Positions 26,299-40,478 of a DNA stretch of 64,000 nucleotides are shown here, in pieces (the stretch's first letter is position 1; every line of letters starts with the position of its first letter). Source of the DNA: Aggregatimonas sangjinii (lineage in GTDB: Bacteria > Bacteroidota > Bacteroidia > Flavobacteriales > Flavobacteriaceae); assembly GCF_005943945.1 (NCBI RefSeq), contig NZ_CP040710.1:2491001-2555000 (forward strand), given 5' to 3'. Made by a program: the position numbers and the translations under genes. The notes below the pieces were generated by a model. It was not told the DNA's origin, searched no databases, and worked only from the letters and a program-made list of their open reading frames with translations.

Positions 26299-26357
26299 AA
26301 TCTATTAAAGTGGCCGAAGCATAGTCTTAAACGCAAATGTAAATTGTATGCTCCATC

Positions 26358-26438
26358 GCTTGGGCTTTTAAGCTCCCCTCTATCTGCCATTGACCCATTC
26401 ATTCCCTTCTTTGTCCAAAAGGGGGAGCTTAAAAAGCC
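26358..26438. repeat. half copy of palindromic element
   Basis: Begins GCTTGGGCTTTTAAGCTCCC and ends GGGGGAGCTTAAAAAGCC. It matches the right arm of the complete elements that follow (GGGCTTTCAA ... GGGGAGC). Present between the acylase gene and the first complete element. Confidence 0.7.
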
Positions 26439-26461
26439 TCCTTTCTTTAAAAAGAAAATGT

Positions 26462-26652
26462 AAAAGCTCCTCCCCTCTGATGAAGGGAAGTGGATTCCAG
26501 CGGCCATCGGCGGATAGGAAGACGGAGGGATAGAAAGCCCGAATCTTCGTTTAAAACACAAACGTGAACTGAGTACCCTATGGTTTGGGCTTTCAACCTC
26601 ACAGACCAACAAGTTGGACACCCCTCCTTTTCCAATGAGGGGAGCTTTAAAA
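26462..26652. repeat. imperfect palindromic element, complete copy
   Basis: About 190 bases. The left edge AAAGCTCCTCCCCTCTGATG pairs with the right edge CCAATGAGGGGAGCTTT. Inner arms GAAAGCCCGAA and TTTGGGCTTTC form a nested stem. Located directly upstream of the DUF559 gene. Confidence 0.75.
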
Positions 26653-26708
26653 TCCACTCAATATAAATACTCCAATAAATTTCCCATATTTTTCTAATTT
26701 TAGATAAC

Positions 26709-27083
26709 TTGAAAACTGACAGAACGCATAGCAAAAAAGAGCTACTGGAATTCCGAAAAGAGCTACGCAAGAACCTTACCCCTGCTGAAGCTTTTCTCTG
26801 GAAACAATTGAAGGCAAAGCAGTTTGAAGGCCAAAAGTTCGTAAAACAACATAGTATTGGAAAATACATCCTTGATTTCTATTGCGCCTCAGAAAAATTG
26901 ATTATTGAATTGGATGGGGAAGTACACCAAAACGCAACCGTTGCCGAATATGATGCTGAAAGAACGAACTACCTTAACAAGCTAGGATATACAGTGATAC
27001 GATTCGAGAACAAAATGGTTTTTGACAACCTGCAGTCTTTTTTTATGGAAATAAGGGAAAAATTTAAAAAAGATGTAAGTTAA
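26709..27083 (+). CDS. DUF559 endonuclease-domain protein
   Basis: A 124-residue protein starting at a TTG codon (MKTDRTHSKKELLEFR). The DUF559 domain covers nearly all of it: KELRKNLTPAEAFLWKQLK, KFVKQHSIGKYILDFYC, LIIELDGEVHQ and GYTVIRFENKMVFDN. The fold is related to Vsr-type mismatch nicking nucleases, and Asp56, Glu67 and Asp69 are the probable metal ligands. The function of free-standing members is unproven. Its surroundings are striking: complete imperfect palindromes stand on both sides. A close paralogue, also with a TTG start and palindromes nearby, is at 45642-46004. Confidence 0.8.
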   Translation: MKTDRTHSKKELLEFRKELRKNLTPAEAFLWKQLKAKQFEGQKFVKQHSIGKYILDFYCASEKLIIELDGEVHQNATVAEYDAERTNYLNKLGYTVIRFENKMVFDNLQSFFMEIREKFKKDVS

Positions 27084-27114
27084 AAAACGACTTGTATTGA
27101 AAAGTGTTTTAGGC

Positions 27115-27313
27115 TGAAGTTCCTCCCTTTGGATAAAGGGAGGTGGTTTTTCTCCGCCGCAGGACGGACGAAAAAGCGGAGGGGTTGAAAGCCCGAACCT
27201 TTGCTTATAAAGCAAATGTGAATCGCTTTCCCCTAGGCTTGGGCTTTCAATCTCCCCTTTCTCCGCCTAAGGCGGATTCATTCCCCTCTTTATCCAAAGA
27301 GGGGAGCCAAAGA
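27115..27313. repeat. imperfect palindromic element, complete copy
   Basis: About 200 bases. TTCCTCCCTTTGGATAAAGG at the left pairs with CCTCTTTATCCAAAGAGGGG at the right; inner GAAAGCCCGAA and TTGGGCTTTC arms match those of the copy at 26462. It also holds CTCCGCCTAAGGCGGA, a small perfect hairpin. Starts 32 bases after the DUF559 stop. Confidence 0.75.
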
Positions 27314-27342
27314 AAGTCTTGCTTTCGAAAAGTAAATTATAA

Positions 27343-27536
27343 TAGCTCTTGCCTTCGGATGAAGGGAAGTGGATTCCATTCACCATGAGCGGATAGGAAG
27401 ACGGAGGGTTTGGAAAGCGCGAATCTCGGCTTGAAAAGCAAATGTGAATCGCTATGCTGAGGCTAGGGCTTCTTATCCCATTTTCACCATTAAAAGCGGA
27501 TTCATTCCCCACCATGTCCAATGAGGATTCCTCTTT
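27343..27536. repeat. imperfect palindromic element, more diverged copy
   Basis: Left arm TAGCTCTTGCCTTCGGATGA and a segment GAAGGGAAGTGGATTCCA are shared with the copy at 26462. The right arm (CCAATGAGGATTCCTCTTTA) has drifted. It ends about 35 bases before the stop codon of coxF. Confidence 0.65.
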
Positions 27537-27573: not shown

Positions 27574-28584
27574 TTAAGAACTGATGTACTTCTCCGGAGC
27601 ATTCTCAAAGCTAACCTTACAACCATCGCAGCAGAAATAGACTTTTTCGCCTTGGTACTCCACGATATGCTTAGGGTTCTTTTTGGATACCGGTACATTA
27701 CATACCGGATTGATGTAATAATCTTCGGCAAATTTATCCGCTGCAGGGGCTGTGCCAGACATTTCCGTTGTGGATGTTTTGTCCTGCTCGGAAGTACGGT
27801 GGGCCGCCTTCCCATTTCGAAAATGGTCGACGACCTCGGCCAAAATACTGATGGCGACCTCGCTGGCCAATTTAGCGTTGATATCCAACCCAACGGGACT
27901 TCGCAATTGGGAAACCCGCGCTTCCGAAATACCGGCATCAGTCAGATATTTTTTGATGTCCTCGGATTTTTTCAAACTGGCCACAAAGCCCACGTAGGTT
28001 ACAGAGGTCTCCAATGCCTTCTTTACGGAAAGTTCGTCATCTTCACCCTGTGTGGTGACGATGATATAAGTATTGTTCAGGTTTTTGAAAGTGCTGAAAT
28101 CAACGTTTTCGGCAACATTATCGGCCGTTGGGAACATTTGTACATCGGCATCCGTGGCCATTACCGAGACGCGAAAATCTCCTGCAGAAGCCATTTGCAC
28201 CAGTTTACGGGCAATGTTGCTTTTTCCAATGACAATCAATTCAGGCTGTGGGATTACTGGTTCTATCATAACTTCCAAGGTTCCTTTACTTTGACATGAC
28301 ATTACGTACTCTTTAAATGTTGGGGTTTGGCGGGTACCGCCTTCGGGCGAAATGCGTATGCGGCGGTAACGCCTGGTCCTGATGACCTCCAAAGCCTCCT
28401 TGATGACAATACCACGTACACAACCTCCTCCAACCCAGCCGATAACTTCTCCTGTTTCCAAGATCAAGGCTTTGTCCCCCACTTTACCGGAACTCGGTGC
28501 AATGCGGTCGACCACTTGGGCAATTGCAAAATTAGCTCCTTTGGCCAAGTGTTTTTCTATCTGTAGCGCGAGTTCGTTAAACAT
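27574..28584 (-). CDS. coxF: XdhC/CoxF-family maturation protein with C-terminal YHS domain
   Basis: A 336-residue protein in three parts. An XdhC_CoxI domain (about residues 5-75: AIAQVVDRIAPSSGKVGDKA, WVGGGCVRG) comes first, then a Rossmann XdhC_C domain (about 110-250: ELIVIGKSNIARKLVQMAS, SPVGLDINAKLASEVAISIL). A YHS domain closes it (about 288-336) with Cys295, Cys318, Cys319 and Cys322 (PVCNVPV, YFCCDGCK). XdhC-like proteins bind molybdenum cofactor and help insert its sulfurated form; CoxF has this place in carbon monoxide dehydrogenase clusters. The YHS addition, a metal-binding type, is not part of the classical CoxF and might handle copper. It overlaps coxE by 8 bases. Confidence 0.85.
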   Translation of the reverse strand: MFNELALQIEKHLAKGANFAIAQVVDRIAPSSGKVGDKALILETGEVIGWVGGGCVRGIVIKEALEVIRTRRYRRIRISPEGGTRQTPTFKEYVMSCQSKGTLEVMIEPVIPQPELIVIGKSNIARKLVQMASAGDFRVSVMATDADVQMFPTADNVAENVDFSTFKNLNNTYIIVTTQGEDDELSVKKALETSVTYVGFVASLKKSEDIKKYLTDAGISEARVSQLRSPVGLDINAKLASEVAISILAEVVDHFRNGKAAHRTSEQDKTSTTEMSGTAPAADKFAEDYYINPVCNVPVSKKNPKHIVEYQGEKVYFCCDGCKVSFENAPEKYISS

Positions 28585-29713
28585 CCATTAACAATTTTTC
28601 CAATTTTAATAAACTATCCAGGTTGTGTGCCGATTCGAAGGCATCTAGATGCGGCATCACATTTACAATTCCTTTCTGAACGGGCTGGTAGCCTTTCATC
28701 CCCTTTAAGGGATTCAGCCATACCAAGGTTTTGCATTTTCGGCGTATCGTACGAACGGCTTCCTTTAAAACCGTAACGTTTCCTGTTTCCAGTCCGTCAC
28801 TCAAAATAACTACGATATGTTTCTGACTTAAAAATTTGCTTCCATAAACGGAGAGAAATTCCGATAGCGATTCCCCTATTTTCGTGCCACTTGACCATGA
28901 ATGTACGTTCTTCCCGATCTGTCTTAGAATTTCTTGCTCATTGTTTTGGCGGAGCATTGGCGTAACGTGTGTCAACTCCGTACTAAAGGTAAAGAACTCC
29001 AGACTTTTAAAATATTTCTTTAACACCATCACATAGCGCAGGAGGTAATAACTATAGGTATCCATAGACCCGCTCACATCCAGAATAAAGACCACCTTAC
29101 GCTTTTCCTTGCGTTTGCGTTTATAAGAGAGGTCCAATAACAACCCACCTTTTGCGATGCCGTGTCGAATCGTATTCCGAATATCGATACTGCCCTTGTT
29201 CGCGTTTTCCAACCGTCGCTTAAAACGCATACTCATTTGATGAAAGAGTTCTTCGGCCAGTTCTTCCAATTTCTCTTTATCGGTAACATTTACCTTTGAG
29301 AAATCGGTCATTCGAAGGCGTATGCTTTCATTGGCCCCGACCATCTCTTTGGCCTCCTCCTCTTTCACCTGTTTTTTAGGTACTTTGAACTCCGTTCCCA
29401 AAAAAATAACCGTGGCCGTCTCCTTTTCTTTCTTCAGTTGTTTGATCTGTTTCTTGCGCTGCTCCAATTTCTCTTCGTAGTAGCGACTCCAAAAACGATC
29501 GAACATTTCATCAAAACGATCAGCATGTTCCTTGCGCTTGCAATAAATTGATTTTAAACTATATTGAAACAGTTTACGGTCCAATGCCCAACCGCGCGCG
29601 GCAACCTCAAAAGCATCATGCGTTTCTTGAGGACCCAAGACAAACTGCCGCTCACGACAATACATAGTAAAATCTATCAGGCGTTCTTTGAAAGTTTTGG
29701 TGACGGCTTGCAC
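28577..29713 (-). CDS. coxE: VWA domain protein CoxE
   Basis: A 378-residue protein with a helical, Lys-rich N-terminal half and a von Willebrand factor A domain. The MIDAS motif is DVSGSM (residues 212-217), followed by a SSGTKIGESL loop and ILSDGLETGN. CoxE works with the AAA+ protein CoxD in maturation of the bimetallic active site of carbon monoxide dehydrogenase. The order MoxR-type ATPase then VWA protein is preserved here. A heptanucleotide repeat lies 14 bases upstream of the start codon. Confidence 0.9.
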   Translation of the reverse strand: MQAVTKTFKERLIDFTMYCRERQFVLGPQETHDAFEVAARGWALDRKLFQYSLKSIYCKRKEHADRFDEMFDRFWSRYYEEKLEQRKKQIKQLKKEKETATVIFLGTEFKVPKKQVKEEEAKEMVGANESIRLRMTDFSKVNVTDKEKLEELAEELFHQMSMRFKRRLENANKGSIDIRNTIRHGIAKGGLLLDLSYKRKRKEKRKVVFILDVSGSMDTYSYYLLRYVMVLKKYFKSLEFFTFSTELTHVTPMLRQNNEQEILRQIGKNVHSWSSGTKIGESLSEFLSVYGSKFLSQKHIVVILSDGLETGNVTVLKEAVRTIRRKCKTLVWLNPLKGMKGYQPVQKGIVNVMPHLDAFESAHNLDSLLKLEKLLMDV

Positions 29714-29726
29714 AGGGAGTTATGTT

Positions 29727-29772
29727 TGTGTTTGGTGTTTTGTGTTTTGTGTTTTGTGTTTTGTGTTTTGTG
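29727..29772. repeat. heptanucleotide tandem repeat (TGTGTTT, 6.5 copies) at the coxE leader
   Basis: Six and a half copies of TGTGTTT, one with a single change, end 14 bases upstream of the coxE start. On the mRNA it reads as an A/C-rich tract (AAACACA units). Its length could vary by slippage and would change the leader of coxE. Confidence 0.9.
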
Positions 29773-29916
29773 ATAAATAAATTTTGATTTGGAACTTTCT
29801 TAAATAGGTCAACTTCTCTTAATTAAAGTGTATCTATTCGACTGACTTTTCAAAACAATCAATAAAGACATGAGGGAAGATATTTTGCAATATTCCCTCT
29901 CCATAGCGCTATCAAA

Positions 29917-30789
29917 TCATCCTATGGGATACAGAAACTCCTGTACGGATTTGTTACGTACAAATTCCACGTCATCTTTATGTTTGAGCACGCTACCTAT
30001 AGTCGTTTTTACAATCTCATCAGTGATATTCGTTTGATTCATGAGCAACAAAGTTTTTGCCCAGTCCAAGGATTCTGCGATACCGGGTGGCTTATGCAAG
30101 CTGGACTTGCGCAAGTTGTGAATAAAGGTAACGACCTGTGTCGCCAATTCCTCATCGATATTCGGGAGTTTTTTTGCAATAATATCAATCTCACCAGCTT
30201 TGGACGGGAAGTCTACCCAATGGTATAAGCACCGTCGACGTAGCGCATCGCTCAATTCACGTGTTCGATTGGAGGTTAAAATGACCAAGGGCTTTGATTT
30301 CGCCGAGATGGTTCCTAATTCGGGAATACTGATTTGAAAGTCGGACAACAGTTCTAACAAATAGGCCTCAAACTCCTCATCGGCACGATCGATTTCATCG
30401 ATGAGCAAAACCACGGGTTTGTCAGCACTTATCGATTGCAACAAGGGGCGTTGCAATACGTAGTCCATTCCGAAAATTTGGTTTTGCAGGGCCAGTTTAT
30501 CGGTCTCCTGTTCAAAGAGTTTGATATGAAGGAGTTGTTTTTGGTAGTTCCATTCGTAGATGGTCGTACTTACATCGAGTCCTTCATAACACTGCAATCT
30601 AATAAGGTCCGTACCCAAATGTTCCGCCAAGGTTTTGGCCAACATGGTCTTACCCACCCCTGGATTCCCCTCCAACAATAAAGGCTTTTCCAAATTTTTC
30701 AATAAAAAAACGGAAGTCGCCAGTTCTTCGTTCAAGATATAATCATGCTCATAAAAATCCTGTATAAGCGTTTCGATTTCTTTATTCAA
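29917..30789 (-). CDS. coxD: MoxR-family AAA+ ATPase CoxD
   Basis: A 290-residue MoxR-type ATPase. Walker A GNPGVGKT (residues 41-48), Walker B VVLLIDEIDRADEEFE (126-141), sensor 1 (VILTSNRTRELSDALRRRC) and the arginine finger are visible. In Oligotropha carboxidovorans CoxD is required to build the [CuSMoO2] site of carbon monoxide dehydrogenase. Position between coxG and coxE supports the same role here. Gap to coxE is about 200 bases and contains the heptamer repeat. Confidence 0.92.
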   Translation of the reverse strand: MNKEIETLIQDFYEHDYILNEELATSVFLLKNLEKPLLLEGNPGVGKTMLAKTLAEHLGTDLIRLQCYEGLDVSTTIYEWNYQKQLLHIKLFEQETDKLALQNQIFGMDYVLQRPLLQSISADKPVVLLIDEIDRADEEFEAYLLELLSDFQISIPELGTISAKSKPLVILTSNRTRELSDALRRRCLYHWVDFPSKAGEIDIIAKKLPNIDEELATQVVTFIHNLRKSSLHKPPGIAESLDWAKTLLLMNQTNITDEIVKTTIGSVLKHKDDVEFVRNKSVQEFLYPIG

Positions 30790-30863
30790 TGCATTCGTTT
30801 TTAAGTACTACAAAAGCTATGCCCGGGGGTGCATAGCTTCTTGATTATAGATTACGGGTTCCG

Positions 30864-31337
30864 TTAAACCGCAGCCTCTTCGGCCGCAGCTAATTTTTTC
30901 GAAAAATTGGAAACAAACTGCTTGAACAGTTGATTCGATACCGTAGTAATCAAGCGCGACCCGAACTGCGCGATTTTTCCATTAACGGTAACATCCATAA
31001 TAGCATCCAACTTTACGCCACCTTCATCGCGCTCGGTTAGGTTGATCGTCATCATCATTTCTGCATTCCCATTCCCTTTGGAATCTACACCGTCCCCAGT
31101 AAGAATGATTTTTCGATTTTCCTTATCAATTTCCTTATAGAAAATATCGGCATCGTACTTCACACCCATGGGGCCGAATTTCATACCAACCTTTCCTTTG
31201 TAGTGGTTCTCCCCCACTTTCTCATCGACCGATACTCCCGGTACGCAATCCATGATTTTTTCAGGATCGATTAAATGTTCCCATACCAAATCAGTGCCTT
31301 GGGGCACTTCGAATGATTTATCCAATTGTGTTTTCAT
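30864..31337 (-). CDS. coxG: CoxG-like SRPBCC protein
   Basis: A 157-residue protein of the carbon monoxide dehydrogenase subunit G family (SRPBCC fold). It begins LDKSFEVPQGTDLVWEHLID, has CVPGVSVDEKVGENHYKG and KVGMKFGPMGVKYDA, and ends without the hydrophobic C-terminal anchor described for some CoxG proteins. CoxG is thought to link the enzyme to the membrane or to a quinone pool. Placed between coxL and coxD, separated from coxL by a 271-base gap with a half palindromic element. Confidence 0.9.
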   Translation of the reverse strand: MKTQLDKSFEVPQGTDLVWEHLIDPEKIMDCVPGVSVDEKVGENHYKGKVGMKFGPMGVKYDADIFYKEIDKENRKIILTGDGVDSKGNGNAEMMMTINLTERDEGGVKLDAIMDVTVNGKIAQFGSRLITTVSNQLFKQFVSNFSKKLAAAEEAAV

Positions 31338-31470
31338 GATTAAGCAATTTTAATGTCAGTCCCACGCTTGTGCTGAACTCGTTTCAGTAAAGGAGGGAAT
31401 CTGTTTTAATTATATGCTGCGCTTTGTTAAAGGGTTGCGCTTCTATTTTATCTAAGATGTTTGAACTAAG

Positions 31471-31558
31471 GCTTGGGCTTTCAAACCTGTCTGCCGGCAA
31501 GCCCTCCGTCCAACAAGTTAGTCACCTCCCTTCATCTTAAGGGAGGAGCCTTAAACCT
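31471..31558. repeat. half copy of palindromic element inside the cox gene cluster
   Basis: GCTTGGGCTTTCAAACCTGT followed by CTGCCGGCAAG and CCTCCCTTCATCTTAAGGGA resembles the right arm of the elements at 26462 and 27115. It sits in the gap between coxL and coxG; transcribed on the minus strand it can form the CCTCCCTT/AAGGGAGG hairpin. Confidence 0.65.
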
Positions 31559-31608
31559 TTTACTTTTTTGGAACCTAATAGTTCTTTATTTTTTATTTCG
31601 TATTTCAC

Positions 31609-33975
31609 CTAAGCCTTCGCTTTGGACTCTTGAATCGCCTCCCAGACCTTATCCGGGGTAATCGGAATATCCAAATGTTTGATACCCAACGGATATAAGG
31701 CATCAATAATGGCATTGGCAATGGCAGGTGGTGCACCTACTGTCGGGGATTCCGCAACACCTTTGGCACCAAGGGGATGATGCGGTGATGGTGTGATGGT
31801 ATGCCCCGTTTCCCAATGTGGGGACTCGACCGCGGTGGGCACCAAATAATCCATCAGCGTTCCGTTCAGGACATTTCCTTCGTCGTCATATACAATACCC
31901 TCGTACATTGCGGGAGCGATACCTTGTGTTAGTCCACCGTGTACCTGCCCTTCTACAATCATCGGGTTGATAATGTTGCCACAATCGTCAATCGCCACGA
32001 AGCGCTTGACATCGATCGCCCCGGTTTCTTCCTCTACCTCAACAACGCAAATGTATGCGCCGTTAGGAAAGGTTAAATTCGGCGGGTCGTAATAATGCGT
32101 CGCCTCAAAGCCCGGCTCCATTCCCGGTGGTATGTTGGTATAGGCTGCAAAAGCGACCTCTTGAATGGTCTTCGATTTTTCCGGAGCTCCCTTAACAAAG
32201 TATTTCCCCACTTCCCATTCGATATCATCTTCGCTCACCTCCAAGAGATGTGCAGCGATTTTCTTGCCCTTATCCTTTAATTTTCTGGCCGCAATAGCAG
32301 CCGCAGCGCCTGCAGTGGGCGTACTTCTACTGGCATAGGTACCTAGGCCGTAAGGGGCAGTATCGGTATCCCCTTCATCGATTTCAATATCGGTATAAGG
32401 AATTCCGAGTTCCTCGGCCAGAATTTGCGCATAAGTGGTTTCGTGTCCTTGTCCTTGCGACTTCGTGCCAAAACGTGCCAACGCTTTTCCCGTAGGATGC
32501 ACGCGAATTTCGGCACTATCGAACATGGCGATGCCCAAAATATCGAAGTCTTTGGAGGGGCCAGCGCCTACGACTTCCGTAAAGGTGCAAATACCGATAC
32601 CCATCAACTTTCCTTGGGCACGCTTTTCGGCCTGTTCTTTTTTATAATCGTCGTAGCCGATCATTTCCATGGCTTTTTCCAAGGTGGCTTTGTAATCCCC
32701 ACTATCATAACTCCATCCTAAGGGAGAGGCATAAGGGAATTGTTCTTTCTTGATAAAATTTTCAAAACGCAACTGCGCAGGATCTTTACCAATTTCCGCG
32801 GCAAGTTTGTCAACCATGCGCTCGATGGCATGTACGGCCTCGGTAACCCGGAAAGAACAGCGATACGCCACGCCTCCCGGTGCTTTGTTGGTATAGACCG
32901 CATCCAACTCGGCAAAGGCATGCTCGTAATCGTAGGAACCGGTGCAAATCGAAAACATTCCTGTCGGATATTTAGAAGGGTTGGCCGAAGAATCGGTATA
33001 CCCGTGATCAGCTAAGGTAGATACCTTAAACGCTTGGATTTTTCCATCTTTTGTCGCCGCCAATTCACAGTCCATGTGATAATCCCTAGCAAAGCCGTTT
33101 ATGAGATTTTCGGATCGGTCCTCGATCCATTTTACCGGCTTTCCAATAAGGAAGGAAGCGGCGATGGCAACTACATAGCCCGGATAGACGGGTACCTTCC
33201 CACCGAATCCGCCCCCGATGTCCGGAGCGATAATTCGAATCTTTTCTTCCGATAATCCAACATGACCGGCAACCAGGGCTAAAATCGTACGAATGGCATG
33301 CGGTGCCTGAGAGGTCAGATAAATCAACATTTTCTCGGTATCCTTATCATAAGAAGCCACGATACCGCAGGTTTCAATCGAAGCCACGTGAATTCTGGGC
33401 AAGTGAATCCGTTCTTTTACCACAACATCCGCGGCAGCGATTGCAGCATCCGTTTTCTCCCGTTCACCTCGCTCCCAATGGTAAATGTGGTTGTCTTTTT
33501 GTCCTTCCTTATCCGGACGCAACAAAGGGGCATCTTCCTCTAAGGCTTTGTACGGATTTACAATGGCCTTCATAGGTTCGTATTGCACGTCTACCGCTTC
33601 GGCACCATCCACGGCGATGTATCGGTCCGTCGCAATAACGGCGCAAACTTCCTGAGATTGGTGCATGACGGTATCGGTCGGTAAGACCATTTGTGAATCG
33701 GAAAGCAGTGTAGGCATCCAATGCAAATTATATTGTGCCAAATCTTCGCCGGTGATAACCGCTAAAACACCAGGTATGGCCAATGCCTTTTCTTTATCGA
33801 TACTTTTGATTTTTGCATAGGCATACGGACTTCGCACCATTACCATACTTAACATGCCCGGTAATTTTACGTCATCGGTATATTTGCCTTTGCCGTGCAA
33901 AAATCGTGCGTCTTCCTTTCGTTTTACAGAGTGACCCATTCCGCCTACCTCTGGTGATGTTTTACATGAGAACAT
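31609..33975 (-). CDS. coxL: aerobic carbon monoxide dehydrogenase large subunit, form I
   Basis: A 788-residue molybdenum hydroxylase. AYRCSFR (residues 370-376) is the form I signature: Cys373 corresponds to Cys388 of Oligotropha CoxL, which ligates copper in the Mo-S-Cu site. The form II loop would read AYRGAGR. GGGFGGK (254-260) is the cofactor contact and Glu742 in GVAESP is the active-site glutamate. It should oxidise CO with water to CO2 and pass electrons to the Fe-S subunit CoxS. coxS precedes it by 17 bases and coxM precedes that, so the three structural genes are cotranscribed. The N-terminal MFSCKTSPEVGG is slightly extended; a start at Met13 is also possible. Confidence 0.96.
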   Translation of the reverse strand: MFSCKTSPEVGGMGHSVKRKEDARFLHGKGKYTDDVKLPGMLSMVMVRSPYAYAKIKSIDKEKALAIPGVLAVITGEDLAQYNLHWMPTLLSDSQMVLPTDTVMHQSQEVCAVIATDRYIAVDGAEAVDVQYEPMKAIVNPYKALEEDAPLLRPDKEGQKDNHIYHWERGEREKTDAAIAAADVVVKERIHLPRIHVASIETCGIVASYDKDTEKMLIYLTSQAPHAIRTILALVAGHVGLSEEKIRIIAPDIGGGFGGKVPVYPGYVVAIAASFLIGKPVKWIEDRSENLINGFARDYHMDCELAATKDGKIQAFKVSTLADHGYTDSSANPSKYPTGMFSICTGSYDYEHAFAELDAVYTNKAPGGVAYRCSFRVTEAVHAIERMVDKLAAEIGKDPAQLRFENFIKKEQFPYASPLGWSYDSGDYKATLEKAMEMIGYDDYKKEQAEKRAQGKLMGIGICTFTEVVGAGPSKDFDILGIAMFDSAEIRVHPTGKALARFGTKSQGQGHETTYAQILAEELGIPYTDIEIDEGDTDTAPYGLGTYASRSTPTAGAAAAIAARKLKDKGKKIAAHLLEVSEDDIEWEVGKYFVKGAPEKSKTIQEVAFAAYTNIPPGMEPGFEATHYYDPPNLTFPNGAYICVVEVEEETGAIDVKRFVAIDDCGNIINPMIVEGQVHGGLTQGIAPAMYEGIVYDDEGNVLNGTLMDYLVPTAVESPHWETGHTITPSPHHPLGAKGVAESPTVGAPPAIANAIIDALYPLGIKHLDIPITPDKVWEAIQESKAKA

Positions 33976-33992
33976 AGTTTCTTTTTTAGAGG

Positions 33993-34484
33993 TTAGACTG
34001 TGGCTTCTTTTTCTTTAGACATTTCTTCAGCGGCCTGCTGAACGGATTTTACAATATTATTATAGCCTGTACAGCGACATAGATTTCCGGAAATGCCCCA
34101 TCGAATTTCCTCTTCGGTCGGGTTCGGGTTGGTCTCCAACAGATCTATAGAACGCATGATCATTCCCGGGGTACAAAAACCGCAATGGAGTCCGTGTTGA
34201 TCATGAAACGCTTTTTGGAGAGGATGATTGGTGCCATCAGCGGCAATACCCTCTATGGTCGTAATATTCGCCCCGTCTGCCCTTACTGCCAAATACGTAC
34301 AGGATTTTACCGATTTGCCATCGATCAAAATCGTACAGGCACCGCAGCTCGACGTATCGCATCCGATATGGGTACCGGTCATGTCTAAATTCTCACGAAT
34401 AAAATGTACCAAGAGCAAGCGTGAGTCAACCTCGGCGCTTACCGACTCTCCATTAATCGTCATTGTTATATTGTGTTTTGCCAT
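33993..34484 (-). CDS. coxS: carbon monoxide dehydrogenase small subunit (2Fe-2S)
   Basis: A 163-residue protein with two [2Fe-2S] clusters. The plant-type cluster uses Cys42, Cys47, Cys50 and Cys62 ([16 protein letters not shown]). The second uses Cys101, Cys104, Cys135 and Cys137 ([18 protein letters not shown]). It relays electrons from the molybdenum site to the FAD subunit. Length and cysteine spacing match CoxS. Located between coxM and coxL, as in known cox operons. Confidence 0.97.
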
Positions 34485-34495
34485 TGTGGTATTTT

Positions 34496-35365
34496 TTAGT
34501 TTCGTGCTCTTTCCAAAGCCTTGTTCAACATTCGTTTTGTAATCGTATTCACTATCGACCTTTTGTAGGCTTCAGAACCTCTTAAATCCGATTCCGGTTC
34601 ACAATCCTCACTGGCTATTTGACCTACTTGTGCAATAAGTGCATCGGTTACCTTATGACCCCTCAAGACCTCTTCGCCCCTTTCCAATCGCATGGGTACG
34701 GCACTCACATTGGTTAGACCGATTCCGATTTCCTGACACACCCCATCTCCATCAAGTTCTATATGTACGGCGACTCCTGCCGTGGCATAATCGCCGACCT
34801 TTCTTTCTACCTTATGGTACGCCCCTCCACTATTCGCTTTTGCTTTCGGAATCTGAATCTCCGTTAAGATATCGCCAGGCTCTAAAGCCGTCATGTAGAA
34901 GCCATGAAAAAAATCATCGATAGGAATAGCTTTTTCGCCATCTACGCCTTCTGCTATTATGGTAGCACGCAGGGCCAACATCAACGCCGGTTGATCGTTT
35001 GCCGCATCGCCGTGGGCAATATTGCCCCCGATCGTTCCAAAATTCCGTACAGCGGGATCTGCGGTCAACCATACGGCATCACCAAAAATCGGATAGTTCG
35101 ATTTCAGTAGCGGATCATGTTCTATTTCCGATTGCGTAGTCATGGCCCCGATTTTAAGGATATCGCCATCTTCCTTAATATATGAGAGCCCTTCTATTTT
35201 ACTGATGTCAATGATATGCTCGGGAGTGGCGAATCGCAATTTCATCATCGGCAACAGGCTATGGCCACCGGACATGTATTTCGCTTCGTCACCGAGCTCT
35301 TGCGACAAAGCAATCGCCTCTTCTAACGAGGTGGCCTTGTGATAGTCAAAATTAGCTGGAATCAT
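34496..35365 (-). CDS. coxM: carbon monoxide dehydrogenase medium subunit (FAD-binding)
   Basis: A 289-residue flavoprotein of the xanthine dehydrogenase medium-subunit family. The FAD loops are SGGHS (residues 32-36) and TIGGN (111-115), the usual pair in CoxM, with the C-terminal CO_deh_flav_C domain (about 175-280). It accepts electrons from CoxS and delivers them to the respiratory chain. It is the first gene of the cox operon. The upstream gap of about 190 bases to the divergent cysteine desulfurase holds the probable promoter. Confidence 0.96.
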
Positions 35366-35559: not shown

Positions 35560-36738
35560 ATCAAGTACGCCCAACTCTATTTCGACTACAACGCCACTAC
35601 GCCCTGCGCCAAGGAAGTGGTTGATGCGATGCTGCCCCATTTTCACGAAGACTTCGGAAATCCTTCGAGCAGTCATCACCCATACGGGTGGTTGGCGAAG
35701 CGTTCCGTTGAAGATGCCACTGCTTCCATAGCTAAAAGTCTAGAGGTTGCTCCGAGCAGCTTGGTCTATACTTCTGGAGCAACGGAAAGTATCAATATGG
35801 TACTGAAGGGGGTTGCCAGAAAACTGCAATCCAAAGGAAAACACATCATTACAACCAAGGCGGAACACAAAGCTGTTTTGGATACCTGCATCTTTTTGGA
35901 GGAAGAAGGATTTGAAATCAGCTATCTGGACGTGGAATCGGATGGATTGATTTCCTTGGAAAAGTTAAACAAAACGCTTCGACCAGATACGATTTTGGTC
36001 TCCATACTATTTGCAAATAATGAGACGGGGGTCATACAACCGCTCGATGACATCGCCGGAAAGGTGCATGCCAATGGAAGCCTGCTTTTCTCCGATACGA
36101 CCCAAGCGCTAGGGAAAGTGGCCATATCCGAAGTTTTAAAAAAAGTCGATTATGCCTGTTTTTCGGGACATAAAGTCTACGGACCAAAAGGAATCGGTCT
36201 GGTATACATCAAGAATAATGAAGATGGCGATGGCCTGCCCAGCCTGATTCAAGGTGGGGGGCAACAAAAACGACAACGGGGTGGTACCATCAATACGCCG
36301 TTAATCGTAGGATTGGCAAAGGCTATTGCCTTGGCTTTTGAACAGTTCGATGATGAAAAGAATCGCATCGAAAAATTAAGAAACAAATTAGAAGCTGGAT
36401 TGTTACAAATTGAAATGGCGTTATCCAATAGCAAATCGCCAAAGCGCTTGCCCAATACTGTTCATATTTCCTTCCCCTATGTAGATGGTGCCAATCTCTT
36501 AATCGCACTTAGTGCGCAAATTGCCGTTTCCAACGGATCTGCCTGCAATTCCGCATCCGTAGAACCTTCGCATGTGTTGATGGCGATGGGCGTTGAACGC
36601 ACTTTAGCCTATGCCTCCCTACGCTTAAGTATCGGCCGATATACTACTGATGCGGATATTGAAAAAGCGATAGCGATTATTAGCGAGGAGGTCTCAAAAC
36701 AGCGGGAAAATAACATTTTGTGGGAACGGAGGGGGTAA
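35560..36738 (+). CDS. cysteine desulfurase (NifS/IscS-like), start codon abnormal
   Basis: A PLP enzyme of about 392 residues. LYFDYNATTP opens the fold, FGNPSSSHHPYGW and NETGVIQPLDDIAG follow, and FSGHKVYGPKG carries the PLP lysine. GSACNSASVEPSHVL carries the catalytic cysteine. It should release sulfur from cysteine as a persulfide. The expected N-terminus lies upstream of the first canonical in-frame start (GTG 35617, inside the motif region). The only in-frame option after the preceding stop is ATC at 35560. One base fewer in the A6 tract at 35555-35560 would join the frame to a TTG at 35550. Lying between the cox operon and an XdhC gene, it may supply sulfur to the molybdenum cofactor. 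Confidence 0.8.
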   Translation: MKYAQLYFDYNATTPCAKEVVDAMLPHFHEDFGNPSSSHHPYGWLAKRSVEDATASIAKSLEVAPSSLVYTSGATESINMVLKGVARKLQSKGKHIITTKAEHKAVLDTCIFLEEEGFEISYLDVESDGLISLEKLNKTLRPDTILVSILFANNETGVIQPLDDIAGKVHANGSLLFSDTTQALGKVAISEVLKKVDYACFSGHKVYGPKGIGLVYIKNNEDGDGLPSLIQGGGQQKRQRGGTINTPLIVGLAKAIALAFEQFDDEKNRIEKLRNKLEAGLLQIEMALSNSKSPKRLPNTVHISFPYVDGANLLIALSAQIAVSNGSACNSASVEPSHVLMAMGVERTLAYASLRLSIGRYTTDADIEKAIAIISEEVSKQRENNILWERRG

Positions 36739-36848: not shown

Positions 36849-37955
36849 TTAATTCCGCTCGTGAATCGGTCCGTTCTTCTCGCGTAACATTCCCCCGGTC
36901 TTCTCTGAGAAAACGCTGAGTATCTCGCTAAACAAGCTCAGGGCGATTTCTTCGGGAGTATTCGCTCCGATTTCCAAACCGCAGGGGGCATAAATACGCT
37001 GCTGCTCTTCTTCCGAAAACTCAATACCATTCGCTTTGAATTCGGCAACCATTTTATCAAAGCGTTTGCGCGGTCCCAAAGAGGCGATATAAGGCGCCGG
37101 ACTTTTGATGAGTTGTTTCAAATTGGAATAATCCGTTTTATAGTCGTGGGCCATGAGTATAATCGCCGTGCGCTCATCGATTGTCGGGCGGGCCTCAAAA
37201 TCTTTGGGATACAAGTTAGCGACAGACCGCAGCTTTTCCTTCTTCAACTTCTGAATGTTTCCGACAAGACTTACCTCCCAATCCATCAACTTGGCCATTT
37301 CAAGTATGGGATAGATATCATAATTATCGCCATATACCGCCAGATGAAATTGAGGCGGAATCAATTCTATAAACACACTGGCCTGTAGCGCTTGTGCTTC
37401 ATAATCATACGTCTTTGATTTTTTGTGATTCAGCACGTCCTGAATCTTATCTTGAAGGAAATTCCGCAAGCCTTCGTGTCGACAGTCCTCCAAAGAGGCG
37501 GAATCCTTATTGTAATATAAAGATCGTCCTAAAGGAATCGTATCAATTTCTGAATTTAAAGCGGTTACCGTAGCGATCACATGCTCTCCCCTATCGGAAA
37601 CACATTTTTGCAGCATCTGCAAGGTCTTGGAATTTTCAGAAATGGGCGAGATCAAAACATCGATTACCCCGTTACAGCCCAAGCCCACCCCTATCTCATT
37701 TTCTTTAGAGGTATCATAAGTTACTATTGATGGTTCCTGTTTCAAAATCGCAATTTGGGAACGTTGCAGGGCATCGCCTTCCAAACAGCCACCGCTAATG
37801 CCGCCTTCAAAAACACCGGACTCGAAGACTAGCATTCTGGCGCCTTCCCTGCGGTATGACGATTCCTCAACACGTACTACCTGGGCAATAGCACATTTTT
37901 CATTGGAGTCTTTAAATGAATTGTAAAGTTGTAGTATCGATTTTATTTCTTTCAA
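36849..37955 (-). CDS. XdhC/CoxI-family protein
   Basis: A 368-residue protein with the full XdhC layout. The N-terminal domain has ESSYRREGARMLV, GGISGGCLEGDALQ and GVGLGCNGVIDVLI, and the C-terminal Rossmann-like domain (about 195-340) has LAVYGDNYDIYPILEMA and ASLGPRKRFDKM. XdhC binds molybdenum cofactor, promotes its sulfuration by a cysteine desulfurase and hands it to the apoenzyme. It is the second XdhC-type gene of the region, distinct from the YHS-fused one, and faces the desulfurase gene convergently. A CoxI-like role is likely. Confidence 0.88.
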   Translation of the reverse strand: MKEIKSILQLYNSFKDSNEKCAIAQVVRVEESSYRREGARMLVFESGVFEGGISGGCLEGDALQRSQIAILKQEPSIVTYDTSKENEIGVGLGCNGVIDVLISPISENSKTLQMLQKCVSDRGEHVIATVTALNSEIDTIPLGRSLYYNKDSASLEDCRHEGLRNFLQDKIQDVLNHKKSKTYDYEAQALQASVFIELIPPQFHLAVYGDNYDIYPILEMAKLMDWEVSLVGNIQKLKKEKLRSVANLYPKDFEARPTIDERTAIILMAHDYKTDYSNLKQLIKSPAPYIASLGPRKRFDKMVAEFKANGIEFSEEEQQRIYAPCGLEIGANTPEEIALSLFSEILSVFSEKTGGMLREKNGPIHERN

Positions 37956-38143
37956 GTGATTTCTTTTTTATGTAATCAAGTATTTATGCGCACTCCAAGG
38001 ATGAACTGCAAAGCATATAGCTGTTCGAATGATTATGGAAATTTTCGACAGCGACCATTTCCGATTATTGCGAAATGACCGATTATCTCCTCTAATATAT
38101 CTAAAAATAGCTATATTGAGTACTCTAATTGCTAAGAAAGAAC

Positions 38144-39127
38144 ATGAAGGATTCCTTTGATAGAACCATAGACTATGTACGCATTGCCGTAACGGACCGT
38201 TGCAATTTGCGGTGTTTCTATTGCATGCCCGCCGAAGGAATTCCTTATGAACCAAAGGCACATTTACTTAGTTATGAAGAGATTACACGCCTGTTAAAGG
38301 TCTTAGGCGAATTAGGATTTCGCAAGGTACGGTTTACGGGGGGAGAGCCTTTTCTACGGAAGGATTTTATGCAGTTGTTGGAGAATACGGCCCAGCTGGG
38401 CGACTACAAATCCATTCATATAACCTCTAACGGTACACTTTTACAGCGTCATATTCCACGATTAAAGGAATTGGGCATTACCAAAATCAATCTCAGCATC
38501 GATTCTTTAAATAAGGAGCGTTTCCATAAAATCACACGGCGTGACGATTTTGAAAAAGTAATGCAGACCTTTCACATGCTAATTGACCATGGGTTTCAAA
38601 TCAAACTCAACGCCGTTATCATGAAAGGCATCAATACCCAGGATATCATACCATTGGCCGAACTTGCAAAAAACCACCCCGTTGATGTGCGATTTATAGA
38701 AGAAATGCCTTTCAATGGTGGATATAAGGAAAATTTGGAAATGTACTCCGCCCGCGATATACATGCGGATTTAAAAGCGCAATATCCCAATCTGGCAAGA
38801 CTTCCTAGTGCACACGGAGACACGGCCAGTTTGCTTTCCGTTCCTGGCTATAAGGGAAATATCGGTGTTATCGCGGCATTCTCTAGAACATTTTGTAACA
38901 CCTGCAATCGCCTTCGCATTTCTTCAAAAGGGGATATTAAAAGTTGTTTGTACGACGATGGCGTTTTCAACATACGCGATTTTATGCGTTCGGGAGTATC
39001 CGATATCGAACTCGCCGCAAAATTCCGCGAAATCGTGCGCTTAAAACCGAAGGATGGTTTTGAAGCAGAAAAAATGCGTAAGGCCCCGGCAGCAGCGATG
39101 CAAAGTATGAGCAGTATAGGTGGATAA
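38144..39127 (+). CDS. moaA: GTP 3',8-cyclase MoaA
   Basis: A 327-residue radical SAM enzyme that starts molybdopterin synthesis by converting GTP to 3',8-cyclo-GTP. The SAM cluster is Cys20, Cys24, Cys27 (CNLRCFYC). The C-terminal cluster is in FCNTCNRLRI and SCLYDD, and the protein ends in the GG tail needed for activity. The start at 38144 (MKDSFDRTIDYVRIAV) is the family start; the five extra upstream codons are probably not used. moeA follows on the same strand. Confidence 0.97.
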   Translation: MKDSFDRTIDYVRIAVTDRCNLRCFYCMPAEGIPYEPKAHLLSYEEITRLLKVLGELGFRKVRFTGGEPFLRKDFMQLLENTAQLGDYKSIHITSNGTLLQRHIPRLKELGITKINLSIDSLNKERFHKITRRDDFEKVMQTFHMLIDHGFQIKLNAVIMKGINTQDIIPLAELAKNHPVDVRFIEEMPFNGGYKENLEMYSARDIHADLKAQYPNLARLPSAHGDTASLLSVPGYKGNIGVIAAFSRTFCNTCNRLRISSKGDIKSCLYDDGVFNIRDFMRSGVSDIELAAKFREIVRLKPKDGFEAEKMRKAPAAAMQSMSSIGG

Positions 39128-39263: not shown

Positions 39264-40478
39264 ATGGAAAACAATTTCATCCCCTACGAAAAAGCCCTTT
39301 CGATTTTAGAAGAGCATAAAGGCAATTTTTCTACTGAAACCCTAACTATTGAGGACAGTATTGGTCAATATCTCGCAGAAAATCTCGTGGCCGATAGGGA
39401 TTTTCCACCATTCGACCGGGTTACCATGGATGGTATCGCGATCGCCTTCAAAACTTTTGAAAAAGGCCAAAGGGAATATAACATTGAAACTACGGCGGCA
39501 GCGGGCGCACCTCAGGCCACTCTTCAAGACCCGAAAAAATGCATCGAGGTCATGACCGGCGCCATTAAGCCAAATGGTGTGGACACTGTAATCAGGTATG
39601 AGGATTTGACCCTTTCCGGCGAAAATGCTATAATCACAATAGATACACTGAACTACAAACAGAATGTTCATTTCAAGGGAATGGATATTGCCCAAGGTTC
39701 GGTCATCGTACCGGCTGGAAAGCAATTATCACCAGCGGAAATCAATATTGCCGCCGCCGTTGGAAAAGCTGAGATACAAGTTTATAGGTTGCCAAAGACG
39801 ATAATTTTCTCTACGGGGGATGAGCTCGTAGCCGTTGACGAAACACCAGAATTGCATCAAATTCGACGTTCAAATGTCTATGGGATTCAAGCTACCTTAA
39901 AGGAATGGGGAATAATTGCGGATTTACATCACCTGGCCGATGATAAAACGGTGATGTTGAAAACCGTATCAGAAATGCTGCACGAATATGATCTTTTCAT
40001 CTTCACTGGAGGCGTCTCCAAGGGAAAGTTCGATTACCTGCCCGAGGTGCTGGAAGAATTAAAGGTCAAAAAACACTTTCACAAAATTCAGCAAAGACCG
40101 GGAAAACCTTTTTGGTTTGGTACGAATGCATCGGGAAAAAAGATTTTCGCACTTCCGGGAAATCCTGTCTCGTCCTTTGTTTGTGTGTATATGTATCTGC
40201 GTTTCTGGTTACAAAAATCATTGGGAATCGAACCCAAAACCCAATACGTAAAGCTGAAAAACGATGTGGAGTTCAAGCCAGATTTGGTCTATTTCCTAGA
40301 AGCTAAGTTGACCCGAGTAACCGATGGCAGCTTAATGGCCGAAGCGATTAAAGGAAATGGATCAGGTGATTTCGCTAATCTCGTAAAAACCGACGGATTT
40401 TTAATATTACCGCAAAATAAAAGCCAATTTTTTGCGAATGAGGTGTATCCTTTCGTACCTTATCGAACGAAATGGTAA
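39264..40478 (+). CDS. moeA: molybdopterin molybdotransferase MoeA
   Basis: A 404-residue MoeA that inserts molybdate into adenylylated molybdopterin. FPPFDRVTMDGIAI, AGAPQATLQ, IFSTGDELV, FTGGVSKGKFDYLPEVL, IQQRPGKPFWFG and ALPGNPVSSFV are all in place, and the C-terminal domain IV is present. No separate MogA/MoaB adenylyltransferase was found in the window. The gene lies between moaA and a small membrane protein gene that starts 9 bases later. Confidence 0.96.
   Translation: MENNFIPYEKALSILEEHKGNFSTETLTIEDSIGQYLAENLVADRDFPPFDRVTMDGIAIAFKTFEKGQREYNIETTAAAGAPQATLQDPKKCIEVMTGAIKPNGVDTVIRYEDLTLSGENAIITIDTLNYKQNVHFKGMDIAQGSVIVPAGKQLSPAEINIAAAVGKAEIQVYRLPKTIIFSTGDELVAVDETPELHQIRRSNVYGIQATLKEWGIIADLHHLADDKTVMLKTVSEMLHEYDLFIFTGGVSKGKFDYLPEVLEELKVKKHFHKIQQRPGKPFWFGTNASGKKIFALPGNPVSSFVCVYMYLRFWLQKSLGIEPKTQYVKLKNDVEFKPDLVYFLEAKLTRVTDGSLMAEAIKGNGSGDFANLVKTDGFLILPQNKSQFFANEVYPFVPYRTKW

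Follow-up and report, generated by a model that had tools for sequence, protein, structure and literature searches.

The 64,000-nucleotide stretch of the Aggregatimonas sangjinii genome analysed here (hereafter the window) very probably carries a complete operon for a form I (Mo-S-Cu) aerobic CO dehydrogenase whose maturation would proceed in two steps, with CoxF loading the copper. All seven genes, coxM-S-L-G-D-E-F, lie on the minus strand between window positions 35365 and 27574, and a sequence-only reading of this DNA had already described them as a compact set on one strand, which the coordinates confirm. From coxM to coxF the intergenic gaps are, in order, 11, 17, 271, 74, 203 and -8 bases, and the Pfam domains of all seven products agree with the gene names. 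The features of the locus and of its upstream neighbourhood are:

34496..35365, minus strand: coxM, FAD subunit, 289 aa; FAD_binding_5 and CO_deh_flav_C above cut-off, SGGHS at 32 and GTIGG at 110
33993..34484, minus strand: coxS, subunit with two [2Fe-2S] clusters, 163 aa; Fer2_2 and Fer2 above cut-off, eight cysteines (42, 47, 50, 62, 101, 104, 136, 138)
31609..33975, minus strand: coxL, form I Mo-Cu catalytic subunit, 788 aa; TIGR02416, AYRCSFR, form I clade
30864..31337, minus strand: coxG, 157 aa, probably connects to the quinone pool (role from the literature); PF06240 COXG, 85.1 bits
29917..30789, minus strand: coxD, AAA+ ATPase, TTG start; AAA and AAA_5 domains, homologues equally placed in other cox loci
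28577..29713, minus strand: coxE, VWA protein, GTG start; PF05762 VWA_CoxE, 177.8 bits
27574..28584, minus strand: coxF, XdhC_CoxI, XdhC_C and C-terminal YHS, 336 aa; PF02625, PF13478 and PF04945 above cut-off, relatives with the same architecture
27580..27714, minus strand: YHS domain of coxF (genome positions 2518580-2518714); PF04945, 45.1 bits (cut-off 30.3), 49 bits in the genome scan
35617..36738, plus strand: divergent gene resembling cysteine desulfurases, a candidate donor of sulfur; Aminotran_5
36849..37955, minus strand: second XdhC, without YHS; PF02625 and PF13478 only, non-CoxF XdhC clade (100/100)
38129..39127, plus strand: moaA, molybdenum cofactor synthesis; TIGR02666, 351.6 bits (cut-off 284.05), in 31 of 37 loci
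39264..40478, plus strand: moeA-like gene, molybdenum cofactor synthesis; TIGR00177, 93.1 bits (cut-off 85.35), best model NF007960 at 255.6 bits, under its cut-off of 440; in 29 of 37 loci

The assignment to form I rests on several features of CoxL. Its score against TIGR02416 (1196.7 bits, cut-off 991.15) exceeds the cut-off by 205 bits, which excludes a chance match. The motif AYRCSFR occupies residues 370-376, numbered from the first ATG, and aligns to residues 385-391 of the Afipia/Oligotropha protein, placing Cys373 on Cys388 and bearing out the earlier proposal that Cys373 stands at the copper-binding cysteine; the ligand residues are kept, with Gln223, Cys373 and Glu742 aligned to Afipia Gln240, Cys388 and Glu763. 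In a CoxL tree of 63 rows (quick method, LG+G4, with one long form II row, L183, flagged), the split between form I and form II received 100% SH-aLRT, and the window protein fell on the form I side with Maribacter, Pelagihabitans and Eudoraea, not in the form II clade that had been named beforehand as the refuting outcome. Motif and tree position together led us to reject CoxL as form II. Three CoxL rows depart from the motif pattern (L095, L105 and L180, with AFRCSFR or AYACSFR), and all three lie within the form I clade. The CoxM and CoxS subunits, with their Pfam domains and the eight CoxS cysteines, are also those of a form I enzyme, and the closest solved structures to CoxL are the CO dehydrogenases 8uem, 1ffu, 1n5w and 1zxi (1011-1036 bits), the next chain scoring 490 bits. 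In all likelihood, judging from these sequence features, CO is the substrate of the A. sangjinii enzyme.

Form I coxL has already been published for Bacteroidota (PMC6794299, PMC10305171, PMC13203968), and the operon is a fresh member of a known gene-set type. The sequence-only reading had pointed to a gene order unlike that of Oligotropha; this holds, in that pHCG3 has the classical order M-S-L-D-E-F-G and the window operon does not, but the distinctiveness was overstated, since all complete flavobacterial operons (38 of 38) share M-S-L-G-D-E-F. We rejected the gene order as a new feature on these counts and on the order in plasmid pBN2, where an SRPBCC gene is counted as coxG.

CoxF, an XdhC-type protein, ends in a YHS domain, which the earlier reading overlooked, as it did a form II paralogue elsewhere in the genome. 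This YHS domain is the sole PF04945 match in the genome at E ≤ 0.001. We collected 75 loci. Ten of these were unscorable for CoxF: a contig end truncates nine, including L077, whose YHS is present, and in L080 the contig stops soon past XdhC. Among the remaining 65 CoxF proteins, YHS was found in 63 by Pfam (E ≤ 0.001) and in 64 by sequence pattern, one protein having the pattern without a Pfam match at that threshold; the lone CoxF without the pattern (L079) bears an HMA domain. Cys295, Cys318 and Cys322 of the YHS domain are invariant in 64 of 64 CoxF-YHS proteins, and the linker before it is predicted to be disordered (CoxF residues 260-279, pLDDT <50). The rest of the window CoxF consists of XdhC_CoxI and XdhC_C, and it grouped with the CoxF side at 100/100 against 15 other XdhC proteins. 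The CoxF tree comprised 57 rows (26 of the 65 scored CoxF, a further CoxF set and the 15 non-CoxF XdhC, with Nonomuraea, L180, left out); 38 of its 42 CoxF rows add YHS or HMA. Top Foldseek matches of CoxF were XdhC-core structures, with no YHS-titled protein among the best 50 rows listed.

A suspected copper site, M107CPSHGTM, is reported for Oligotropha CoxF in PMC4240915. By eye, the cysteine in that motif seems to have its counterpart in Cys97 of the window CoxF, which does not vary (64 of 64). We rejected an Oligotropha-type site as specific to CoxF, because the tail-less XdhC of the window has a similar cysteine, Cys94 (GLGCNG); judged from sequence context, a cysteine at this position seems to be a common feature of XdhC and not one tied to copper.

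Within the samples searched, the tail is restricted to form I. The Flavobacteriaceae genomes with form I CoxL, 10 of 397, are the very ones with CoxF-YHS, and across the phylum the genomes with form I CoxL, 7 of 345, are the very ones with CoxF, though these co-occurrences (10 of 10 and 7 of 7) come from few lineages with a block-inherited operon and are not independent trials. These whole-genome tests cover the window's own phylum, and the Chloroflexota evidence consists of loci. At 31 form II loci (leaving out L085, where CoxL of both forms occurs in a single stretch, and counting L122, which spans only 10.9 kb), no YHS- or HMA-bearing XdhC was found and any XdhC was present at three, while coxD and coxE occurred together at 25, including all 17 flavobacterial form II loci. 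One such form II CoxL (L007) is the paralogue in the same genome, about 46 kb away and outside the window (positions 2474575-2476887); its loop is AYRGAGR, matching what had been said of form II enzymes, and it lies in the form II clade, neither of which applies to the window CoxL.

In six CoxF proteins, one of them from a Rhodothermales record, the YHS domain is replaced by an HMA domain with the motif MSCxHC (Pfam and motif agree in 6 of 6), and these form one clade (99/98). A scan of four alphaproteobacterial CoxF, that of Oligotropha among them, found neither domain in any, nor was a tail domain found on scanning the XdhC that adjoins Nonomuraea CoxL, so YHS or HMA is dispensable for copper loading in general. 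A further set of 19 form I-like plasmid records (55-66% CoxL identity) was examined in full for 10 and judged by the end of the tblastn match for nine; of these nine, the match reaches the YHS part in one (Caballeronia SBC1) and stops by residue 287 in eight, all alphaproteobacterial by genus name.

From these patterns we propose a two-step maturation. First, CoxD, with CoxE, would carry out the sulfuration and opening of the Mo site, a step apparently used by form II as well. CoxF would then place Cu(I) between Cys373 and the sulfur bound to Mo, its XdhC core docking at the Mo site and its flexibly tethered C-terminal metal carrier (YHS here, HMA in the Rhodothermales-like group) bringing the metal. 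Given the form I restriction and the HMA replacement, the metal of the YHS domain is probably copper, delivered to CoxL. The division of labour between sulfuration by CoxD/CoxE and copper loading by CoxF is evenly poised between being right and wrong. In Oligotropha, coxE and coxF mutants are reported to make enzyme without copper, part of it still sulfur-bearing (PMC4240915, PMC3471820); each mutant is described as lacking both proteins and as having mixed Mo sites (PMC4240915), so the genetics cannot part CoxF from CoxE. Since CoxD and CoxE are common to form II, which lacks the copper-binding cysteine, the CoxF tail would on this proposal turn a Mo=S site into a Mo-S-Cu site. In most form I lineages CoxF could then be a dedicated copper-loading chaperone, made of an XdhC docking core and an exchangeable tail (mostly YHS, HMA in the Rhodothermales-like group, lost in Alphaproteobacteria), and the tail a genomic marker of copper CO dehydrogenases in those lineages; we would wager neither for nor against this generalisation.

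HMA domains are metal carriers, and YHS domains are able to hold metals other than copper. It is conceivable, though we consider it unlikely, that the enzyme is form I but that the YHS of CoxF holds structural zinc or serves docking to CoxE or CoxL, copper arriving by another route, as it necessarily does in alphaproteobacteria. The tail-less alphaproteobacterial CoxF favour such a role, as does the fact that the YHS part matches no solved chains other than components of phenol hydroxylase, which have a zinc site there. The unrelated HMA with MSCxHC at the same place in six CoxF is, however, hard to square with structural zinc, and the absence of any other YHS domain from the genome also speaks against a structural or docking role. 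It is distinctly more doubtful that the YHS and HMA cysteines relay sulfur (as persulfide) rather than copper to the Mo site, together with the divergent cysteine desulfurase. Such a desulfurase-like gene does lie upstream of coxM in 36 of the 37 flavobacterial loci having at least 3 kb there, and Rhodobacter NifS4 is reported to sulfurate XdhC-bound Moco (PMC2997495), but 0 of 15 non-CoxF XdhC carry a YHS or HMA tail, and sulfur transfer in Oligotropha is described in PMC3471820 as independent of CoxE and CoxF. The neighbouring gene at 35617 has no standard start codon at the position used by seven compared relatives and, from its sequence, may be impaired; that the operon itself encodes a degenerate or re-purposed molybdenum hydroxylase acting on a substrate other than CO is nonetheless highly improbable, given seven open full-length genes, retained ligand residues, CoxL identity of 90-97% among flavobacterial records and the form I clade.

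Copper loading by CoxF is thus our preferred reading. The enzyme itself would serve as an energy supplement for a heterotroph. CoxM/CoxS/CoxL would oxidise CO to CO2, with electrons passing via the two [2Fe-2S] clusters and FAD and then onward through CoxG, whose likely role here is taken from the literature (PMC13240472), to the quinone pool and the heme-copper oxidases. The RuBisCO large subunit (PF00016) had 0 matches in the genome, which does not fit a RuBisCO-based carboxydotroph, and two heme-copper oxidases are encoded; together these fit CO as an energy supplement. Carriage of the genes is no proof of their use, since Robiginitalea biformata is reported to have a hydrogenase without substantially consuming H2 (PMC10305171).

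Prior thinking on the copper route to the Mo-S-Cu site was based on a suspected CoxF motif in one model organism, whose CoxF is tail-less. In CoxF from other lineages a metal-binding module can be recognised; one group bears in its stead an unrelated domain of copper-chaperone type. The tail makes a poorly understood step of enzyme assembly directly testable and, if it is a copper carrier, as is probable, would help explain that assembly. The operon would also predict CO use by culturable flavobacteria such as Maribacter, where it is present in the genomes of M. orientalis DSM 16471 (L090) and M. arcticus DSM 23546 (L047).

Compared with known systems, the putative form II operon of the same genome shares CoxM, CoxS and CoxL homologues and coxD and coxE with the window, but differs in its AYRGAGR loop, 41% CoxL identity and separate clade, and coxF was not seen at its locus. 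The XdhC Moco chaperones 2we7 and 3on5 resemble CoxF in having the XdhC core by sequence and fold, whereas the 15 other XdhC separate from CoxF, with the YHS or HMA tail on the CoxF side. Plasmid pHCG3 of Oligotropha/Afipia carboxidovorans has the same seven genes, AYRCSFR and a CoxL 58% identical to that of the window, but a different order and a CoxF without YHS; its stretch carries MHYT-domain proteins where the window has the desulfurase/XdhC/MoaA/MoeA block, and the window genome, for its part, lacks the RuBisCO large subunit. Nearer in CoxF architecture are plasmid operons of Paraburkholderia aromaticivorans, Thermomicrobium roseum, Deinococcus sp. AJ005 and Natronorubrum bangense, which combine form I CoxL (59-66% identical to the window's) with an XdhC-YHS CoxF. 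P. aromaticivorans pBN2 reads M-S-L-SRPBCC-D-E-F, the window order if SRPBCC is coxG, whereas the order on the other three plasmids is unlike that of the window. Cysteine desulfurase and MoaA, both in the window block, are absent from the annotation of all four plasmid stretches; moeA is present in Natronorubrum, and Natronorubrum and pBN2 each have a second XdhC, as does the window.

The source genome is a single contig of 4.72 Mb, with the window at G000:C1:2491001-2555000 (G000 being the genome and C1 its contig). The sequence-only reading had described a complete form I carbon monoxide dehydrogenase operon on one strand, and this was borne out, as all seven genes are present with fitting Pfam domains, and CoxL carries AYRCSFR at residues 370-376:

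35365 to 27574, - strand: coxM-coxS-coxL-coxG-coxD-coxE-coxF

Intergenic gaps from coxM to coxF are, in order, 11, 17, 271, 74, 203 and -8 bases. Two of them are longer than the rest of this tight operon: the coxL-coxG gap (31338-31608), which by eye holds a stretch like the repeats near a DUF559 gene, and the coxD-coxE gap (29714-29916), with a short tandem run of AAACAC type. Against the model for aerobic CO dehydrogenase, CoxL reaches 1196.7 bits, where the cut-off is 991.15; its top solved-structure relatives are CO dehydrogenases and its nearest matches are records from Flavobacteriaceae. Residues Gln223, Cys373 and Glu742 align on Gln240, Cys388 and Glu763 of the Oligotropha enzyme (sequence from plasmid pHCG3), residues whose roles come from its solved structure.

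In a quick LG+G4 tree of 63 CoxL rows, which gave a warning on the long form II row L183, form I and form II separate at 100% SH-aLRT with the window CoxL on the form I side. A tree of this kind was the check suggested by the sequence-only reading, and its outcome favours form I. The observation is right, and its interpretation holds as far as sequence reaches. The nearest neighbours are Maribacter orientalis, M. halichondriae and M. arcticus, then Pelagihabitans and Eudoraea, the group being nested in a form I Bacteroidota group; a search of open-access literature listed no paper with both coxL and Maribacter. Three CoxL in the form I clade have variant motifs, AFRCSFR (L095, L105) and AYACSFR (the Nonomuraea locus L180), the former being absent from the six motifs listed in the accessible part of PMC13203968. 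The genome has a second CoxL (G000:C1:2474575-2476887), with AYRGAGR and 673.7 bits, below the cut-off. Its form II operon (L007:7603-14339), ordered D-E-S-L-M, lies outside the window, separated from the form I genes by about 46 kb, and has between coxE and coxD a small four-helix gene that by eye is 23S intervening-sequence-like. Two more molybdenum hydroxylase genes, IorB-like by eye, were seen with small Fe-S partners (L009:4169-6334 and L010:4341-6575); near the second, a MocA-like nucleotidyltransferase (by eye; L010:3684-4292) could make the cytosine-dinucleotide cofactor.

CoxL above the cut-off was found in 10 of 397 Flavobacteriaceae genomes and in 7 of 345 drawn from the phylum, two samples that overlap. 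Among flavobacterial loci with at least 3 kb upstream, a cysteine desulfurase-like gene and a second XdhC each occur there in 36 of 37, MoaA in 31 and MoeA in 29, some stretches stopping short of where MoaA or MoeA would show. In the window, the desulfurase-like gene has in its start region (35560-35640) no standard start codon at the position used by seven relatives compared; its first in-frame start, a GTG at 35617, would cost about 18 N-terminal residues. Possible explanations are a real loss, an atypical start codon and an error in the sequence. The region 26298-27526, directly downstream of coxF, is possibly a small mobile or repeat-associated element: in it a DUF559 gene (26709-27083) sits amid several imperfect repeats, both direct and inverted, 20-122 bases long.

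The part deserving follow-up is the architecture of CoxF, an XdhC-type chaperone, and its tie to the copper step. Window CoxF ends in a YHS domain (residues 291-334; 45.1 bits, cut-off 30.3), the sole YHS match in the genome. Across CoxF from 65 form I loci (64 from the database plus the window), Pfam detects XdhC_C in 65, XdhC_CoxI in 64, YHS in 63 (E<=0.001) and HMA in one. The YHS cysteines are present by pattern in 64 of the 65, with Cys295, Cys318 and Cys322 invariant in all 64 and Cys319 in 48. By record title, these loci come from Bacteroidota, Chloroflexota, Dormibacteria, Gemmatimonadota, Acidobacteriota and Marinimicrobia, with one Gammaproteobacteria and one Actinobacteria record (L098, its CoxF bearing YHS), and plasmid records extend the range to Thermomicrobium, Deinococcus, the archaeon Natronorubrum, Paraburkholderia and Caballeronia. 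The XdhC beside the Nonomuraea CoxL has no tail. An open-access search found no published work joining YHS with XdhC or with carbon monoxide dehydrogenase, such absence being unproven by a search of that scope. CoxF is named alongside XdhC in six papers and alongside a copper chaperone in four, with PMC4240915, PMC2997495 and PMC3471820 among these.

The tail follows form I, in counts that are not independent because the operon is passed on as a block. In the 397 family genomes, a CoxF profile gave 10 matches at E<=2.0e-161 extending through the YHS part, in the same 10 genomes that have form I CoxL, and the next match (1.2e-37) ends with the XdhC core. The 345 phylum genomes gave 7 matches at E<=1e-40, again the same 7 with form I, five of which fall short of the profile end because their tail is HMA. 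We inspected 31 form II loci, of which Flavobacteriaceae supplied 17, further members of the phylum sample 9 and plasmids 5. Homologues of both coxD and coxE occur in 25 of the 31, including all 17 flavobacterial loci; any XdhC occurs in 3, and an XdhC with YHS or HMA in none. The YHS model used there recovered the tail in six CoxF on which it had not been trained; Pfam YHS was found in 6 of the 25 members of set A3, which holds those six, in a summary that names no members.

An HMA domain with the motif (G/A)MSCxHC replaces YHS in L079 (Rhodothermales) and in five phylum-sample genomes, four of one genus (G399, G404, G443, G450) and one of another family (G565), Pfam HMA and the motif each being found in 6 of 6. 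We call the five Rhodothermales-like because their CoxF cluster with L079. In a tree of XdhC cores, from which the Nonomuraea XdhC was left out, CoxF separate from 15 other XdhC at 100/100, HMA-bearing CoxF form one clade (99/98) and four tail-less alphaproteobacterial CoxF another (96/97), with the branching order among the main CoxF groups left unresolved. The minimum number of tail changes is two, and we infer that YHS was ancestral, with one swap to HMA and one loss. The CoxL of G565 (locus L165) clusters with those of L166 and L078, whose CoxF have YHS, while its own HMA-bearing CoxF clusters with that of L079, so its CoxL and CoxF may have separate histories.

Searches of the genome found neither a RuBisCO large subunit nor a [NiFe] hydrogenase, so CO would be an energy supplement. 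Electrons probably exit through CoxG, described as a route to the quinone pool in the available part of PMC13240472, and then reach heme-copper oxidases, which have two matches in the genome.

Form I coxL in Bacteroidota is already published (PMC6794299, PMC10305171, PMC13203968), and in the accessible parts of these papers no isolate of the phylum is described as taking up CO; the operon is a further case of a known type. Its order, proposed to differ from the classical one, does differ from pHCG3 (M-S-L-D-E-F-G), but M-S-L-G-D-E-F is not distinctive, recurring in all 38 complete operons among 44 flavobacterial loci of genome_contigs, the contig database searched. In Oligotropha, according to the portions available, coxD works in sulfuration, and coxE and coxF mutants make enzyme without copper, a portion of it with Mo-bound sulfur (PMC4240915, PMC3471820). 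Each mutant lacks both CoxE and CoxF (PMC4240915), therefore genetics cannot separate the two. Retention of D and E with form II, and not of F, suggests that CoxF is the copper-specific factor. In the predicted CoxF model (pTM 0.69, core-tail placement not relied on), a disordered linker (260-279, pLDDT under 50) lies between core and tail, as expected of a tethered carrier; the YHS or HMA tail would carry copper on this flexible tether, though zinc is a possible metal of the YHS domain. For Oligotropha CoxF, the role in copper supply was deduced from motifs in its sequence, and M107CPSHGTM was suspected to be the site (PMC4240915, in the part available). Being tied to the copper-cysteine form in our samples, missing beside the other form and, in one group, an HMA of copper-chaperone type, the metal-binding-type tail suggests itself as a better candidate site outside the Oligotropha lineage.
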